Positions 24,638 to 35,243 of a stretch of 37,498 nucleotides of DNA are shown here, piece after piece. The stretch's first letter is position 1, and every line of letters starts with the position of its first letter. The stretch comes from a virus, in IMG/VR virus record IMGVR_UViG_3300035183_000116, positions 1-37,498 of that record, one strand, 5' to 3'. Both the position numbers and the translations under genes were made by a program. The notes under the pieces are model-generated. The model had not been told where the DNA came from. It saw nothing but the letters and a program-made list of their open reading frames with translations, and searched no databases.

Positions 24638-25189
24638 TTATCGGGTGCCTCGCCCAGCCAAATTCCAAAATACCGCCAGCTCATCCAAGCATTCGCGAAA
24701 CTGACGGCGCACGAATGCGATATCTCGCTCGGCCTGCGACGCGGCGATATCACGGAATTTTTCGCGATTAACCAATATCCTGCGGATCACTATCTCACCG
24801 CGACGGCCAAGGACACGGCCTGCCTCCGACAGGTGACGCACCGCAGCAATCTGCCGGTCAGTGATGGCTTCGTAGAATTCGCCGCCGCCGTCCACAGGCT
24901 CTTTTGTCGTGTCCATGCCCTTGACGCTGCCGATCTGTGAGGCTTCGGCGTATTGCTCGTACAGGCGGCCGGCTCGAAATTGCGCTTCGTCGATGTCACC
25001 ACGAACCCGAAGGTGCCGCAGGATATCGTCGCGGAGCGTGACGGTAACTTCCAGCCGTTTTCCCGGCTCGATTGGATCATCAACGATTGCTGATGCGGTG
25101 ACCGCATTAACTGGGACGATAGCTGCCCTCCGGTCGTAGTCCGCCGCGCCCCGGTCGTAGGCGTTTCTGCGTTTGGATGCGCCGTTCAT
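24638..25189 (-). CDS. Putative regulatory protein, DUF6456/HTH-like
   Basis: A 183-residue protein starting MNGASKRRNAYDRGAADYDR. The ATG at 25189 has an excellent AGGAGGG ahead. A longer frame to 25315 would translate the hairpin and is rejected. The C-terminal half (DRQIAAVRHLSEAGRVLGRR, then EIVIRRILVNREKF and a helical end) looks like a helix-turn-helix fold of the type seen in DUF6456 and TerS-neighbour proteins. It is the first gene after the early/late boundary and could be a late activator, but this is inference. Confidence 0.55.
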   Translation of the reverse strand: MNGASKRRNAYDRGAADYDRRAAIVPVNAVTASAIVDDPIEPGKRLEVTVTLRDDILRHLRVRGDIDEAQFRAGRLYEQYAEASQIGSVKGMDTTKEPVDGGGEFYEAITDRQIAAVRHLSEAGRVLGRRGEIVIRRILVNREKFRDIAASQAERDIAFVRRQFRECLDELAVFWNLAGRGTR

Positions 25190-25206
25190 TCCGCCCTCCT
25201 GTTCCG

Positions 25207-25242
25207 GGCGGGCTGCGTTAGCGCCCGCCGCGCCAAGCGGCG
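25207..25242. repeat. GC-rich inverted repeats in the boundary region
   Basis: Two nearby inverted repeats: GGCGGGC-TGCGTTAGC-GCCCGCC (25207-25229) and CGCCGC-GCCAA-GCGGCG (25226-25231 with 25237-25242), the second sharing bases with the first. They lie in the 5' leader of the putative regulatory gene, whose AGGAGGG follows. They may be mutually exclusive RNA folds. Confidence 0.5.
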
Positions 25243-25256
25243 GCGCGCGCGACCTG

Positions 25257-25293
25257 CTACGTATGGGGCGACGAAAGTCGCCCCTATACGTAG
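25257..25293. repeat. Long near-perfect hairpin with GAAA loop at the early/late boundary
   Basis: A 16-bp stem with one bulged base: CTACGTAT-GGGGCGAC, loop GAAA (plus strand), GTCGCCCC-T-ATACGTAG. Beside it, AGTATA on the plus strand (25292-25297) is TATACT for leftward transcription, a possible -10 box. The stem would sit at the start of the resulting RNA. No U tract follows on either strand, so it is not a simple intrinsic terminator. Confidence 0.75.
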
Positions 25294-25301
25294 TATAGCT
25301 G

Positions 25302-25424
25302 ACTTTCGCCGCCAACCTTCGCCAATGATTTCAATCACTTACACCCCCGACTTTCGCCACTTTCGCCAACCTTCGCCACTAGCAAAATCAATGACTTACA
25401 CCCCCGACTTTCGCCACTTTCGCC
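25302..25424. repeat. Seven 9-bp iterons ACYTTCGCC
   Basis: Copies start at 25302, 25315, 25350, 25359, 25369, 25407 and 25416. The sequence is ACTTTCGCC or ACCTTCGCC. A larger direct repeat covers 25331-25367 and 25388-25424 with one mismatch (57-base spacing, 19 codons). The right half lies in the last codons of primase, the rest downstream of its stop. This could be a replication origin, since it is adjacent to the replicative primase-helicase, or a binding array for a late activator. Confidence 0.65.
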
Positions 25425-27436
25425 GGGTCTTGTACGTTCTGGACGACCTTCAGGCCCCTCAAGTTGGCTTTCCGGTCCCTGTATTCTGTTACCAGTACCC
25501 CATTGATGATCCATGTCTCGACCATGTGTTCCGCGGTTTGTATTGCGATGTTGAAATTGACGCTGATGTTCTTTGGAGCGTATCGCCCTTCCCCTCTGGT
25601 CTGCGGCGCGTTGCTCCATGGGCGCCCTGAATCCCACGCTTCTGCGATGGCATTCAGGATTTGCTGGCACACCCCTCTGGATGGCCAGCCGTTGGCATTG
25701 GCCTCTGCCATGCCGGTAATAACAAGACTGCTTTTGGGCTTGTTGAGGTCGATTTGTTCGCTTGGTCCAGTGATCTGAATTTTTTCGATCGTCAGGGTTC
25801 GTTGCCAGCCATCTTCTTCGTCTTTGAGTTTTTCGCAGGTCAGTGTGATCGGGTTTACGCCTTTTTCCTTTTCCAGTTTGAATACGAAGTCACCGGCCCC
25901 TCTGAGCACGGTCGAACCTCGCATGTCACCGCTTTTGCCGGCATGGTGTACGCCGATAACGCCTGCCTCTGTGGCCCTTCTGAGCCTGTCACAAGCCGAG
26001 ATGAAGATGGTCATCTCCTTCTGGAGATTTTCATCTGCACCGGGCAGGACGCGGGACACGGTATCGACAACGATCAGCCGGTAGTTTTTGCTGCGCGCCG
26101 TTACGGTCGAGGTTAGTGCTTCGACACAAGCCTCATCCATGAATGACAGCGCAGCGGTTATGATCTCAAACCCTTCTGGGTCATTGACCAATCCGTGGTG
26201 TTTTTTGAAAGCGTCTACGCGGTCAATTATGCCGCGTCCGCCCTCTTGCAAGATGTAAAGAATAGGCCCTGTTCGCTTGATCGGGATGCCGTGCCATTCG
26301 TTCATCCTATAAGCAAGGTGCAGGCACCAATCGAGGACCGTGAACGATTTTCCGCAGCCGGGATCGCCGTATATGAAGCCTAACGAATCGGCCGGTATCC
26401 AGCCGTCGATCACCCATTCAAGCGGAGGCATGCCGCGAAGGTCACTGAGCTGGATAACCTGGATCGGTGTTGCGGCTGGTTTTGCTGGTTCGGTTGCCGC
26501 CGCGATGACAGCGTGCGGGTCGCCGCCTTCGGCTATACAGTCGGCCGCATCCCATTTGTCTGGCTTGCCAGCGGTTGGGACGATGGTGACGCGGCAATTG
26601 ATAGCGTTAAGATTAGTACGCACCCGCTCCATTAGCTGATGGCCTGGCGCATCATTGTCCGGCCATAGCGTGACGCTTTTGCCTGCAAGCGGTGTCCAGT
26701 CAACCTTGTCAAGCGGAGCGTTGGCCCCGCCCATGATCGTGGTGGCCTCGATACCGCATGAGGCCAGTGCATCGGCGCATTTCTCGCCCTCGCACAGGAC
26801 GACGTGCGATGCCTCAATGATTGCCTTGAGGCGGTACAGGGGACGGACGGCTGGTGCGTGCGGCCGGATTCGGAATGTCTTGCGGATTTGACCATTGACA
26901 TTGTTTTCGAACCGCTGGACTACGGCGGCAATATTCCCGTCCCGATCGTAGTAATGATAATTGTTTGTCGGGATGCCGAGTTCAGCATCTTCCTTGCGTG
27001 GCTTATCGCCCAGCTTTTCCTTTTTTTCGGCTATGCGCTCGGTTGCTGATCGTTCCCAAGCGGGCCGGGATAGCGGGACAGTTTGATCGCCAAAAAATTC
27101 GTTTGCGATCTCTTTAAGTGCAAGGCCGAACTTGCCTTTGCCATAGCCCATATATTCCTGATAGAGGCGGATAAGATCGCCGCCTTCGTTGGTGGCGAAA
27201 TCGTGCCAGAGGCCGATATCTGGCCCGGCGAGCGAAATGCGCAGCGACATGCCGGGATTGCCGTATTTGTCACCGATACGGGCTTCGTATTTACCGATGA
27301 TCGCGCGGCCCGAGAAAAGCCATTCGACAAAGGACGCAGCATTGGCATTCAGGCGATGGCGGATGTCGTCCGCCTCGACCTGGCCGGGCTTGTGTTCGCC
27401 CTGACGTGCTGCGCTATTGAAATCGATGACGGTCAA
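25388..27436 (-). CDS. Primase-helicase fusion (TOPRIM plus RecA-like ATPase)
   Basis: A 682-residue replication protein. The N-terminal domain has WHDFATNEGGDLIRLYQEYM. TOPRIM follows, with VVLCEGEKCADAL (Glu216) and the acidic LWPDNDAPG (Asp260, Asp262). The RecA-like C-terminal half has Walker A GDPGCGKS (357-364) and Walker B LIVVDTVSR (about 463-471), then a motif with HHAGKSG. It would prime and unwind at the phage fork, like T7 gp4-type or AAA_25 prophage enzymes. It is the last gene of the early operon. The C-terminal tail (AKVAKVGGVSH) is encoded by the iterons. Confidence 0.9.
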   Translation of the reverse strand: MTVIDFNSAARQGEHKPGQVEADDIRHRLNANAASFVEWLFSGRAIIGKYEARIGDKYGNPGMSLRISLAGPDIGLWHDFATNEGGDLIRLYQEYMGYGKGKFGLALKEIANEFFGDQTVPLSRPAWERSATERIAEKKEKLGDKPRKEDAELGIPTNNYHYYDRDGNIAAVVQRFENNVNGQIRKTFRIRPHAPAVRPLYRLKAIIEASHVVLCEGEKCADALASCGIEATTIMGGANAPLDKVDWTPLAGKSVTLWPDNDAPGHQLMERVRTNLNAINCRVTIVPTAGKPDKWDAADCIAEGGDPHAVIAAATEPAKPAATPIQVIQLSDLRGMPPLEWVIDGWIPADSLGFIYGDPGCGKSFTVLDWCLHLAYRMNEWHGIPIKRTGPILYILQEGGRGIIDRVDAFKKHHGLVNDPEGFEIITAALSFMDEACVEALTSTVTARSKNYRLIVVDTVSRVLPGADENLQKEMTIFISACDRLRRATEAGVIGVHHAGKSGDMRGSTVLRGAGDFVFKLEKEKGVNPITLTCEKLKDEEDGWQRTLTIEKIQITGPSEQIDLNKPKSSLVITGMAEANANGWPSRGVCQQILNAIAEAWDSGRPWSNAPQTRGEGRYAPKNISVNFNIAIQTAEHMVETWIINGVLVTEYRDRKANLRGLKVVQNVQDPAKVAKVGGVSH

Positions 27437-27457: not shown

Positions 27458-28180
27458 CTATTCTTGGAACCAACACCGCTCTTTGTGCGCACAGACCTTG
27501 CATCGCCAATCCGTTGGCTCCTTTGCGATGCGTTCAAGCAATTCTCCGGCTTTCGTGGCCTTGATGACGAGCACAGCCCGGTCTGATGCAGCCTGTGCGG
27601 CCTCGGCATCGAAGGGCACTTGCAAGTGTAGAATTTCGCAATTGTCCGAATTGACCGCTGTAAAGATCGCTGGGTTATCGGTCAGGTCAAGGTAAGCCAT
27701 GTAAAGCTGGCACTGATCGAAATACTGCGGGTATGCGGTGCGCAGTCCGTCCTTTTCAAGCTTGCGCCAGCCGGACGATCCGAGTGCCTTGTGCTCCCAA
27801 AGGCATGGGTATGACATGACGGGCGGACCATCACGGATGATGCCATCGGCGTGACCGCGAAAGTCGCCGTTGACCGCTTCGAATTTCGTAGCCTCGGTGT
27901 TGCGCTCAATGTGGAAGCCTGCGGCGATGAGTGCCTTAGCCGTAATATCCTCAAAGGCATGACCGCGTGCAAATATGCGCTTGGTGCGCGCCGGGTGTGT
28001 GGAATCGCACTGCCAATCATATTGAATGCGTCTTAAGCACTCAGAACCGATGCTGGACGCGCCGAGATAATCCCGGCGCGCATCGCGCTGTTCTTCCAGC
28101 GCTGCCTTGTCCAGCAGTTGGTTTATGGCGGCGTTGAAATCCGATGCAGCGAGATTGGCGCGGTTGAGGTCGATAGTCAA
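27458..28180 (-). CDS. Cas4-like PD-(D/E)XK nuclease with Fe-S cysteines
   Basis: A 240-residue nuclease. The catalytic core shows His74-x2-Glu77, Asp112 in GHADG, and Glu129-x-Lys131 in WEHKALG, the PD-(D/E)XK set. Four cysteines, one early (Cys49) and three near the end (Cys227, Cys230, Cys236 in WRCKVCAHKERCW), match the 4Fe-4S arrangement of Cas4 and AddB nucleases. It would resect DNA ends, giving a 3' single strand for the annealing system next door. There is no CRISPR locus here. Confidence 0.85.
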   Translation of the reverse strand: MTIDLNRANLAASDFNAAINQLLDKAALEEQRDARRDYLGASSIGSECLRRIQYDWQCDSTHPARTKRIFARGHAFEDITAKALIAAGFHIERNTEATKFEAVNGDFRGHADGIIRDGPPVMSYPCLWEHKALGSSGWRKLEKDGLRTAYPQYFDQCQLYMAYLDLTDNPAIFTAVNSDNCEILHLQVPFDAEAAQAASDRAVLVIKATKAGELLERIAKEPTDWRCKVCAHKERCWFQE

Positions 28181-29277: not shown

Positions 29278-30126
29278 TTAAGCTGCCTTGGTTTCATTCG
29301 GGATGGTATGAGTGAGCGCCTTACGTTCTCCTTTGCTTGTGAGCTTGGCTAGCAACTTCCCAAGATGCGGCTCCTCATACATTTCGAGACGGCCTGAACG
29401 ATCCTTAGCTGGATAGCTGTGCGGATTCGGCTGCTGGCAGACGAAGGCGCGATGCAATTGCCCGTCAAAATCGACATGCTGCATCGTGATGACCTGATCG
29501 ACGATGCCGGGCAGTTCATTGCCGGTCTTTGAGCCTTCGATTTGCAATTCCCACGAGACGCGATTGAAGTCGTCGATCTGCTTTTGCAGGATGCCAACGA
29601 AGATTACGTTTTTGTTCCTCGCGTGTTGAAGTTGTGTGAGCCATGAAATCATTTCGCGGCCCATCAAGCCGTAAGTGCCGCGCGTATCTTTCTTGCCGTC
29701 CTTGGTGAAGGATTCCGGTTGCTGTTCGGCCCACTTGAAGCACAAGCGGCCCGCCACGGTAATCGAGTCAATGAAGATAGTTTCGTATTTGTCGAGCGCA
29801 TCAGGCGCGCCCATGGACTCAACCACTGAATCGTAATGCGCCTGCGAATAACAAGCGGTCGGCGGCAGCGCCGGGTTCGGGCCTGAGATATAGGCCGCGA
29901 TGTGCTGACATTCCTCCCATGTGCGGGGGCGCAGTGAATCGACGCGCACGTCTTGCACGGCGAGGTCGCCCGCTTCCAGGTCGATAAACAGCGTTGTCTT
30001 TGGATCGAGTGTGCGTAAAAGGCTGGTCTTACCCACGCCAGCAGGCCCGACAATAAGTGCCTTAACGCCCTTGTCCTGCCGCATCCTTTCGTCGGCGGAT
30101 ATAATTTTCAATTTTCGCTCGGTCAT
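29278..30126 (-). CDS. RecA-like ATPase, Sak4-type recombination protein
   Basis: A 282-residue ATPase. Walker A is GPAGVGKTS (27-35), Walker B is ETIFIDSIT (Asp120). The core lies near LFIDLEAGDLAVQDV, and the C-terminal half has helices followed by basic residues. This is the AAA_24 or Sak4 group, single-strand annealing proteins that use ATP. In phages they pair with DUF669 SSB and a Cas4 nuclease, as here. They promote recombination between phage genomes and probably help headful packaging through concatemers. Confidence 0.85.
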   Translation of the reverse strand: MTERKLKIISADERMRQDKGVKALIVGPAGVGKTSLLRTLDPKTTLFIDLEAGDLAVQDVRVDSLRPRTWEECQHIAAYISGPNPALPPTACYSQAHYDSVVESMGAPDALDKYETIFIDSITVAGRLCFKWAEQQPESFTKDGKKDTRGTYGLMGREMISWLTQLQHARNKNVIFVGILQKQIDDFNRVSWELQIEGSKTGNELPGIVDQVITMQHVDFDGQLHRAFVCQQPNPHSYPAKDRSGRLEMYEEPHLGKLLAKLTSKGERKALTHTIPNETKAA

Positions 30127-30612: not shown

Positions 30613-30767
30613 AGCCTCGCCTCCAAGCATGACAGAGCGCATAGCCACATAAGCAGGCTATATTCGTTGTGTGGCAGCCCAAGATCGGCAACGGGAATCC
30701 AGCCCGCGCGGATGTATGTCTCGCGGTCCATATGGCGGACGTATTTGTATTTGCCGGTGCGTGTCAT
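30609..30767 (-). CDS. Small early-operon protein
   Basis: A 52-residue frame, MTRTGKYKYVRHMDRETYIR then AGWIPVADLGLPHNEYS and a helix. Its ATG overlaps the stop of the methyltransferase-like gene (ATGA) and its stop overlaps the VRR-NUC start by ATGA. Such double overlap supports a real gene. It is basic at the start; the short Trp/Ile segment is typical of small phage proteins in this position. Function unknown. Confidence 0.65.
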   Translation of the reverse strand: MTRTGKYKYVRHMDRETYIRAGWIPVADLGLPHNEYSLLMWLCALSCLEARL

Positions 30768-31363
30768 AGCCATCCAAGTCTAGGTTCGCCGTTGTACTGA
30801 TGGTCACAAACGAACCACGCAAACGCGATCATCCCGCCGCCACCGGCCATCATCTGGTCACCGTTGCGCAACATCGGAATGCGTTCGCTGAAAACCCAAA
30901 CTCTTGACAGGGGCGATGTCTCAAACAGAGATTTGCGGCTTTTGCCCTCAAGCCATGCCAGCCGAAACAACATCGCAACCTTACCCGTTGTCAGAGCCAG
31001 CGACTTCTCGACAAACTGATGAGCGAATTTGAATGGGGGATTAGTAATGATGTTTGGGGCGCGCGGCTGCCACTCCATAAGAAAATCGACGCGCGACGAA
31101 CCAAAGCCGCGATCTATAAGGTCTGTACTGATAACCGTGTGCCCGTGCTTTTCCAGAACCTTGCTAATGGCCCCATCGCCGCAGGCGCACTCCCAGATCG
31201 GCCCCTCAAAACGCTCTACAGACAAAAGCTTTTCCGTCGCTACGGGCGGCGTTGGGTAAAAATCGTCCCTCTCTCGATTTTCTGAATCCGGGATGTTGCC
31301 GCGAACATATGCGTAGCCCACGCCCCTTCTGATAGTCTGATTGATGGACGATTCCGCTGTCAT
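30764..31363 (-). CDS. N6-adenine DNA methyltransferase-like protein
   Basis: A 199-residue protein starting MTAESSINQTIRRGVGYAYV. It carries DFYPTPP (34-40), an S-adenosylmethionine site ECACGDGAI (58-66), and the N6-adenine motif NPPF (108-111). These are a plausible methyltransferase set. The target recognition domain is small. It may modify phage DNA against host restriction or act in gene control; a free-standing phage methylase is common. The ATG overlaps the stop of the upstream gene. Confidence 0.85.
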   Translation of the reverse strand: MTAESSINQTIRRGVGYAYVRGNIPDSENRERDDFYPTPPVATEKLLSVERFEGPIWECACGDGAISKVLEKHGHTVISTDLIDRGFGSSRVDFLMEWQPRAPNIITNPPFKFAHQFVEKSLALTTGKVAMLFRLAWLEGKSRKSLFETSPLSRVWVFSERIPMLRNGDQMMAGGGGMIAFAWFVCDHQYNGEPRLGWL

Positions 31364-31803
31364 GCACGCCCCAGCCACTGACTGAGCGCACTATTGATCG
31401 CAGCCCTGACGCTGGTATGCGTGCGTTTCGCAATCGCCTGAAATTCATCAAACGTATTGCGGTCGATCTCGACCATGCGCTGCGCAGGATTGGGCGCGCA
31501 GCCAAGGTCATTCGCCAACGGTTCCATGTCAGGACGGACAGTCATGCGCTTAATCGCAATTGAGCCGTTATGCGCATTGATAGAAACGACCGGCCAAATA
31601 TTTTTGTTAATCTCGGCCACAAGAGTTTCGATCATTTTTGCGGCCTCAAAGTCTTTCACTGTCAATAGATTCGCGCCGCATTTCGGGCACGGCCTACCGA
31701 TATGACCCGCCGAAATTTCCTGAACAGGCTCGATATAGTCGCATCCGGCCGCATCACACTTTAGCTCGCAACTGGCAAATTCTATTGCGATGCGTTTTGT
31801 CAT
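31360..31803 (-). CDS. Zinc-finger protein with a C-terminal helix-rich DNA-binding-like region
   Basis: A 147-residue protein. Cysteines at 12, 16, 21, 39 and 42 (with CPKCG) form a zinc-ribbon-like N-terminus. A long middle helix follows. The C-terminal RNTFDEFQAIAKRTHTSVRA and then NSALSQWLGRA resembles ribbon-helix-helix or other small DNA-binding folds. It is coupled by ATGA to both its neighbours. It may be a regulator of the early operon. Confidence 0.65.
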   Translation of the reverse strand: MTKRIAIEFASCELKCDAAGCDYIEPVQEISAGHIGRPCPKCGANLLTVKDFEAAKMIETLVAEINKNIWPVVSINAHNGSIAIKRMTVRPDMEPLANDLGCAPNPAQRMVEIDRNTFDEFQAIAKRTHTSVRAAINSALSQWLGRA

Positions 31804-32081: not shown

Positions 32082-32732
32082 TTACTTGTTGGCTAAGCGG
32101 CTTTTTTTCTCTTGTGCCGCTTTCTCTTGCTTCGGCTTGGCTGGCCCTGCGATAAACCAGTCGTACTTTTCCGGCGGCGCGTCCGCCAGCATTGGCATGA
32201 CGAGCCCGAATGCATTCGCAACCCCCAATGAGACCAAGGCAGGATCGCCTTTCGCGCCATAGATGATCCGCAAAGGGACGCTTTGGTTCTGCAGCCCCTT
32301 CAGGATCGCGGCAACCTTGCCGAAACAAGACAGATGCTTCGCATCGATTGCGGGCGCCGTACCGTGGCCAAATCCTTCTCGCTGGGCCTCAACAACGATC
32401 TTCCGATAGTCCGGGTAGTAGCGTCCACCGATCACTACAGGCTTTTGACTGATAAATTCCCCGTGCCGGAACAGGCCATCGTCTTTGACAACGATATGGC
32501 CTTCGGGGATGCTGTCTTTCAGCGCGCCTTTGGGCGGGCCAACGATTGCAGGATCATCGCACTCGCCGTCTTTGTCGTGGATGCAGACCAGCTTACAGCT
32601 ATCAGTAGCCGTTAAGATTACGCCACCGGCCGCGCACGGCTCGATAAAAACACCATTGAGATAGTAGCGCTCCGCATTGGTGGACATGCATATGGACGCC
32701 GCCTTGAAGTAGCTTGCCTTCACCTTGATCAT
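32082..32732 (-). CDS. Sliding-clamp (DnaN)-like protein
   Basis: A 216-residue protein. RYYLNGVFIEP then GGVILTATDSCKLVCIHD matches the first strands of DNA polymerase III beta-subunit domains. It is shorter than DnaN (about 370), so it would hold two clamp domains or fewer. The C-terminus is Lys-rich (GPAKPKQEKAAQEKKSRL). It could form a phage processivity clamp or bind the host polymerase. The gene lies in the early operon near primase-helicase. The match rests on sequence pattern alone. Confidence 0.6.
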   Translation of the reverse strand: MIKVKASYFKAASICMSTNAERYYLNGVFIEPCAAGGVILTATDSCKLVCIHDKDGECDDPAIVGPPKGALKDSIPEGHIVVKDDGLFRHGEFISQKPVVIGGRYYPDYRKIVVEAQREGFGHGTAPAIDAKHLSCFGKVAAILKGLQNQSVPLRIIYGAKGDPALVSLGVANAFGLVMPMLADAPPEKYDWFIAGPAKPKQEKAAQEKKSRLANK

Positions 32733-33174: not shown

Positions 33175-33534
33175 TCATGGCGCCCTCCGCTCCGCATCGC
33201 GGATGGCCTTAAAATTGAAGACGGCTCTGGCAACACGCTCGCTTGGGCTGGAGCCGGTGATGGACAGTCCGCATTCGCGGCGCACCTGCCGCACGCGGCT
33301 TTCAGAACACCCGGCCAGCTGCGCAATCTCGCGAATGCGCAATCCAGACGATGCAAGTGCTATAATCCGCTGCTTTGCTGTTGTGCGCGGCCTCAGAACG
33401 CCAGCTTGGATGACAATGCTTCGTGCGGATTGGGGGCTAATCTTGTGCCGGTCGGCAATGCTGCGAATGTCATTCCCGGCGAGATAGTCCCGCACGATGC
33501 GGCGTTTGAAAAATTGCGAATATTTCCAGCTCAT
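33175..33534 (-). CDS. Helix-turn-helix DNA-binding protein
   Basis: A 119-residue basic protein: MSWKYSQFFKRRIVRDYLAG, then DIRSIADRHKISPQSARSIV and a second unit RIREIAQLAGCSESRVRQVR. These are two tandem HTH modules of the type seen in transposase N-termini and phage replication initiators. It binds DNA with high likelihood. Its target is unknown; the iterons at 25302-25424 or the early promoter are candidates. GAGGCG lies ahead of the ATG. Confidence 0.75.
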   Translation of the reverse strand: MSWKYSQFFKRRIVRDYLAGNDIRSIADRHKISPQSARSIVIQAGVLRPRTTAKQRIIALASSGLRIREIAQLAGCSESRVRQVRRECGLSITGSSPSERVARAVFNFKAIRDAERRAP

Positions 33535-34903: not shown

Positions 34904-35243
34904 GGCCGGTGACCGAATAGGGCCCAGGAGGCCCATAAAAATATACCTCCGGGAGTGGCGGGAGCACTTGGGAATGACCCAAGAGCTGGTCGGCACCCGG
35001 TTTGCGAATCCGATTTCGAAGGGCCAGGTATCCAAGATCGAAGCGAAGGGCGCGACCGGCCGGATCGGCGCGGAAACCGTTGCCGCTTATGCTGAGGCCA
35101 TTAATCGGCACCCCAAAGAACTGTATGGGCCGCCGCCTCAGCCTGATGAACGCCCCACCCTCGACCAAACGGCCGCCGATCTGAATGTCAATTACGACGA
35201 CGCCGTTCGCGCGCTGCGAATCATGGCTGGCCGAGCCGCTTAA
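34893..35243 (+). CDS. XRE-family repressor (CI-like candidate)
   Basis: A 116-residue HTH protein: YLREWREHLGMTQELVGTRF, then ISKGQVSKIEAKG, EAINRHPKELYG. The short C-terminus (about 75-116) has no peptidase domain, so it would not self-cleave like lambda CI. It is divergent from the other XRE gene. No ribosome site precedes the ATG at 34893, and AGGAGG is found only inside (34926-34931), so translation may be leaderless as for lambda cI from PRM. Other starts at 34902 are possible. It would keep lysogeny by binding the GTTRCCA operators. Confidence 0.8.
   Translation: MLVMAGDRIGPRRPIKIYLREWREHLGMTQELVGTRFANPISKGQVSKIEAKGATGRIGAETVAAYAEAINRHPKELYGPPPQPDERPTLDQTAADLNVNYDDAVRALRIMAGRAA

Follow-up and report, generated by a model that had tools for sequence, protein, structure and literature searches.

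What function is served by the short direct repeats that lie between a primase-helicase gene and its next gene in a linear 37,498-bp virus record of IMG/VR (the window, meaning the whole of this stretch)? An earlier note, made from the sequence alone, had proposed either a replication origin or the array of a late activator. The comparative evidence supports the origin beside the primase and speaks against the late activator.

The repeat array and its primase-helicase gene

All seven of the reported ACYTTCGCC iterons were found, each on the + strand and within 123 bp (25302–25424) at the 3′ end of the primase-helicase gene. The motif is absent elsewhere in the window, and seven copies were found against an expected 0.69, a number reached in 0 of 100 shuffles. 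Two of the seven sit in the codons of the primase tail (PAKVAKVGGVSH before the stop) as AKVAKV, and the other five lie past the stop codon. The previously noted direct repeat with 57-base spacing was exact in position. Both array spacers also hold candidate IHF-type sites that the earlier note had missed. The structure reported after the array was recovered as a strong hairpin (25293–25257), and the whole array/hairpin region folds with z −3.55. An Rfam search returned nothing, and the DNA of the array region alone had no match in the phage collection. The features are as follows.

25388..27436, − strand: primase-helicase gene, with a Toprim_3-like primase part, an AAA_25/RSF1010 RepA-like helicase and a C-terminal winged helix
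25445..25678, − strand: C-terminal winged-helix domain, proposed iteron reader (AlphaFold model m6479f5b6f6b7, pLDDT 82)
25416..25424, + strand: iteron 1, inside codons AKV
25407..25415, + strand: iteron 2, inside codons AKV
25369..25377, + strand: iteron 3
25359..25367, + strand: iteron 4
25350..25358, + strand: iteron 5
25315..25323, + strand: iteron 6
25302..25310, + strand: iteron 7
25388..25424: direct repeat copy A, two iterons plus spacer
25331..25367: direct repeat copy B, 37 nt, 97% identical to copy A, offset 57 nt
25386..25398, + strand: candidate IHF-type site 1, AATCAATGACTTA, a perfect WATCAANNNNTTR, overlapping the primase stop codon
25331..25341, + strand: candidate IHF-type site 2, TCAATCACTTA, core TCAAN4TTR
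25284..25298, − strand: distal palindrome CTATACTACGTATAG, at the end of the array, recurring in many relatives; a possible melting or cruciform site
25257..25293, − strand: strong GC-rich hairpin CTACGTATAGGGGCGAC-TTTC-GTCGCCCCATACGTAG, without a T-run; a possible primase start structure
25221..25250, − strand: second GC-rich inverted repeat ahead of the next gene, seen by eye and in the fold
24638..25189, − strand: downstream gene, phrog_21451, kept behind the array in the relative L003

Toprim, helicase and winged helix are all carried by one ORF (25388–27436). Its Toprim_3 match (E 6e-5) is weaker than the Pfam cut-off, the AAA_25 match (PF13481) has E 7e-34, and its PHROG match is a primase/helicase. 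The helicase core of the AlphaFold models is RepA-like, with RSF1010 RepA (1nlf, 1olo, 1g8y) as the best PDB matches and also the sole solved relative by sequence. The C-terminal domain is not covered by Pfam or PHROGs, its weak matches being to further winged helices, FtsK gamma among them. Its best structural match is the SAMD1 WH–DNA complex (Z 8.5, 71 residues, 2.5 Å), and a Foldseek search of the domain against the PDB gave none with E < 0.001. The C-terminal domain of P4 alpha is not among the PDB matches listed, which proves nothing either way.

Directly upstream of the primase-helicase gene are a Cas4-like exonuclease (27458–28180) and a Sak4-like annealing ATPase (29278–30126, − strand), and a RusA-like resolvase lies at 32082–32732. 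A DNA methyltransferase match in ORF 30764–31378 (− strand) spans only profile positions 206–379 of 458, and the overlapping ORF 31360–31803 (− strand) is without any match; a methyltransferase may thus be split or frameshifted across 30764–31803 (− strand).

The same architecture recurs behind homologous helicases

The same architecture follows helicase homologues of dozens of phages, prophages and phage-plasmids, with units that are lineage-specific and in one orientation (among relatives, GCGGARGT, GGCGAARGT, GCGTAGGT, GCGAGGGT, ACGGAACT, GGCGGAGC and CGGGAGTA). When IMG/VR was searched for exact copies of just the 19-nt spacer, 97 stretches were retrieved, more than 20 of which lie downstream of a helicase homologue, many directly behind its stop and each with its own repeated unit. 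To avoid circularity, placement statistics were restricted to loci retrieved through protein similarity, 86 after dereplication. In these loci, TAAGN3TTGA is found between −50 and +300 of the helicase stop 34 times in gene orientation versus once in reverse, and 0 times in 316 kb upstream on both strands; the density of repeated 8-mers peaks in the same interval. At least four copies of one 8-mer occur within 3 kb downstream in 44 of the 86 loci, although a few of these arrays are probably spurious (e.g., L118 and L153). About half of the homologues are without an array in the DNA covered, where many contigs end early and some may lack one. Placement ranges from overlap with the stop codon to ~2 kb downstream of the helicase.

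The geometry of the arrays is conserved as well. Start-to-start spacings in 39 arrays, a set that includes some spacer-fetched loci, cluster at 8–15 (peak 9–10), 34–38, 43–48 and 54–57, with none at 27–32, 39–42 or 49–53, and such classes with empty intervals between the longer ones are what helical phasing of the sites would produce. The motif YAAN4TTGA was present in 34 of 44 long gaps (shuffles 0.25, reverse strand 0); read on the other strand it is TCAAN4TTR, the core of WATCAANNNNTTR, which is the established consensus for IHF, and on the strength of this consensus the array spacers are putative IHF-type sites. Strong hairpins after the arrays are modestly enriched (43% of 40 reach the 10th percentile of the locus concerned or lie below it), and a universal strong hairpin behind every array was rejected on that account.

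As a mark of tRNA genes or att sites the spacer motif was likewise rejected, with a complete tRNA nearby in only 2 of 78 distinct contexts. In other viral contigs, L032 and L089 (also L027, L030 and L066 by eye), the 19-nt IHF-type spacer directly adjoins tRNA genes, possibly at attachment sites.

More distant RepA-like helicases were surveyed in one bacterial family, where a homologue occurs in 19 of 200 species, in some cases with other 8-mer arrays behind it. The prophage helicases L250, L258, L254 and L240 have differing arrays directly downstream (units TTGTCCCG in L250 and ACCGCACA in L258, besides AGCGTTAC and ACTCTCAC), a hint that the class may be far broader. L028, whose helicase has a different C-terminus, is followed by GTCGGGTT repeats and one GTAAGTCATTGAAATCATT.

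Iteron units diverge with the winged helix

The nearest different relative (L003/L004) has a protein ~80% identical to that of the window and shares both the arrangement and the next gene. The earlier note had named absence of the iterons from close relatives with the same genes as a refutation of its proposal, a condition that calls for refinement. The exact iteron is indeed absent in L003, but a variant replaces each unit in the same geometry: the units read TGCGGAAGT/TGCGGAGGT versus GGCGAAAGT/GGCGAAGGT in the window (GCGGARGT versus GCGAARGT), all having changed together, while the spacers GTAAGTSATTGAAATCATT and the terminal palindrome are shared. Between the two proteins the ATPase (helicase) domain is 89% identical and the winged helix only 66%. 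Across 39 arrays, a partial Mantel test associated iteron similarity with winged-helix identity given the ATPase (0.275, p 0.004) and not with the ATPase given the winged helix (0.11, p 0.17), a test that is weakened because the lineages share ancestry and are not independent. The iterons are apparently read by the tail of the same helicase.

Named carriers and GC skew

Among named elements, the circular extrachromosomal 38-kb phage-plasmid p1 of Caenibius sp. WL carries a helicase gene immediately followed by eleven units, and no named replication initiator is among its other annotated genes. In the phage collection, matches to 80% or more of the helicase plus winged helix are limited to two, Rhizobium phage RHph_N65 and EBPR siphovirus 5, and both have the array; in the cultured RHph_N65, positions 34,935–35,099 hold eleven GCGGAGAT units together with two IHF-type sites.

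The detrended GC skew of the window reaches its minimum at about 25,523, ~100 bp from the array, although the flanking genes run in the same direction. By block permutation a minimum falls within 200 bp of the array by chance in 0.9% of cases, and the amplitude has p 0.0045. The minimum lies at most 2 kb from the array in five of eight records and does not point to it in RHph_N65, G013 and G014, so that GC skew was rejected as general proof of an origin.

Alternative explanations for the array

The array lies between the primase and the terminase/structural genes, all leftward, and ends in TATACT with a conserved CTATACTWCGTATAG palindrome, a setting that would suit an operator array for a late-promoter activator, with TATACT starting leftward late transcription. 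We nevertheless regard this explanation as very improbable. The units track the helicase gene across phages with differing downstream genes, and an array that stays with its helicase while those genes change is better explained as an origin than as a promoter. The TATACT that had been proposed as a −10 element exists as a hexamer (25297–25292, minus strand), but a scan of the array region for sigma-70 promoters and intrinsic terminators gave none, leaving it without a −35 partner, and many distal palindromes of relatives differ from it (e.g., TTACTAACATTAGTAAG). Nor did the two suggested HTH binders hold up: the protein encoded at 33175–33534 is confined to the window phage and, weakly, L004, its homologue being absent from 16 of 18 array-bearing records (including those of 44–65 kb), and gene 24638–25189 has no recognisable HTH or DNA-binding domain.

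In iteron plasmids, a repeat-bound initiator can titrate or handcuff. Repeats of the same kind could accordingly form a copy-control, incompatibility or partition site that is bound by the initiator while initiation takes place elsewhere, as with one of the two P4 sites or P1 incA. This we consider very improbable, given that neither the window nor Caenibius p1, in which three single matches lie scattered, has a second array of this kind, and that the GC-skew minimum is located at the array.

Two further explanations are hardly credible. A functionless coding or simple tandem duplication of AKV codons at the protein tail would account for the two units in AKVAKV, yet five of seven lie outside the gene, all do so in most relatives, and spacing and orientation are kept while the sequence changes, so that the comparative data already disfavour it. 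A DNA packaging or recombination site would fit the terminase gene ~1.2 kb downstream, but in relatives with other neighbours the array is linked to the helicase and not to the terminase.

Relation to known replication origins

In common with iteron origins in general, the array has several direct repeats in a single orientation that are helix-phased and linked to a cognate initiator gene. In PICI/SaPI, short iterons just 3′ of the gene for the initiator helicase make up the origin, and their lineage-specific sequences are read by the C-terminus of that helicase (PMC6092414, PMC7581432). The window iterons likewise follow their helicase gene immediately, as in pri-rep-ori, but here a RecA-fold RepA-like helicase is fused to a Toprim-type primase, the units are of 8–9 bp with IHF-type spacers, and the carriers are tailed phages and phage-plasmids, not satellites. 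In PICI/SaPI rep-ori two iteron sets flank one AT-rich melting region; those of the window flank AT-rich IHF-type spacers, and its likely melting site is the distal palindrome. A PICI is a satellite island without the full virion gene set, whereas genes for terminase, portal and major head protein are present in the window.

The P4 helicase belongs to superfamily 3. According to the summary in PMC4234260, P4 alpha unites a Toprim-type primase, a helicase and a C-terminal winged helix that binds origin repeats in one polypeptide. The window protein resembles it in its predicted C-terminal winged helix; it differs in having an AAA_25 helicase of RSF1010 RepA fold, not of superfamily 3, and in unit sequences and layout. 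In RSF1010 (IncQ), helicase, primase and iteron binder are split over three proteins (PMC4234260). Its oriV shares the RepA hexameric helicase fold and the iteron logic with the window, and the hairpins beyond the window iterons may parallel ssiA/ssiB; unlike RSF1010, the window is without a separate RepB′ primase and RepC iteron binder, and its iterons are short with IHF-type spacers. The SCCmec helicase Cch2 binds, through its C-terminal domain, direct repeats that immediately follow its gene and form a putative origin (PMC7581432). Cch2 is of a different helicase family and element and has a separate partner primase. The initiators of pSC101 and R6K gamma, which are not themselves helicases, load DnaB, the helicase of the host. 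In these iteron plasmids phased iterons and IHF assist opening (PMC5043065), and the window array similarly pairs phased iterons with IHF-type sites.

With virion genes present, a helicase outside superfamily 3 and no separate RepB′ or RepC, the window phage is a member of none of PICI, P4 alpha or IncQ. Its origin logic is known from PICI/SaPI, P4 alpha and RSF1010, while the combination of different parts is new; we found no earlier description of this array type in the literature searched, coverage of which was incomplete, especially for subscription papers.

A proposed initiation mechanism and its meaning

The repeats, their conserved geometry and placement, the divergence of the units along with the winged helix and the IHF-type consensus are direct results of the computation. 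We consider it very probable that the array is the replication origin of the phage, at which iteron binding by the winged helix, IHF-type bending, helicase loading or melting and Toprim priming would follow one another. The protein–DNA contacts, the use of IHF and the sites of melting and priming are those that we infer. Each protomer would bind one 9-bp iteron through its C-terminal winged helix, with the occupied faces of the DNA helix in phase, and IHF or a similar protein would bend the two conserved spacers and so fold the array. The bound helicase ring could then load on, or melt, the adjoining palindrome/hairpin region and engage single strands, the distal palindrome being the likely melting site, and the Toprim part would prime near the opened palindrome, perhaps at the GC hairpin.

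We would put at even chances the broader proposal of an undescribed, widespread replicon class, in which the winged helix of a RepA-like helicase and a downstream IHF-spaced iteron array co-diversify into a lineage-specific origin code and perhaps an incompatibility group. If this is true, each phage lineage perhaps has its own group for superinfection or coexistence. The origins of most environmental phages are unknown, and the array type offers a recognisable origin grammar, consisting of a helicase stop, lineage-specific 8–9 bp units about one helical turn apart, an IHF-type spacer, a palindrome and a hairpin, by which origins can be predicted in phages that are uncultivated, in prophages and in phage-plasmids. 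The natural series of winged-helix/DNA-word pairs would also be material for learning how initiators change their recognition code.
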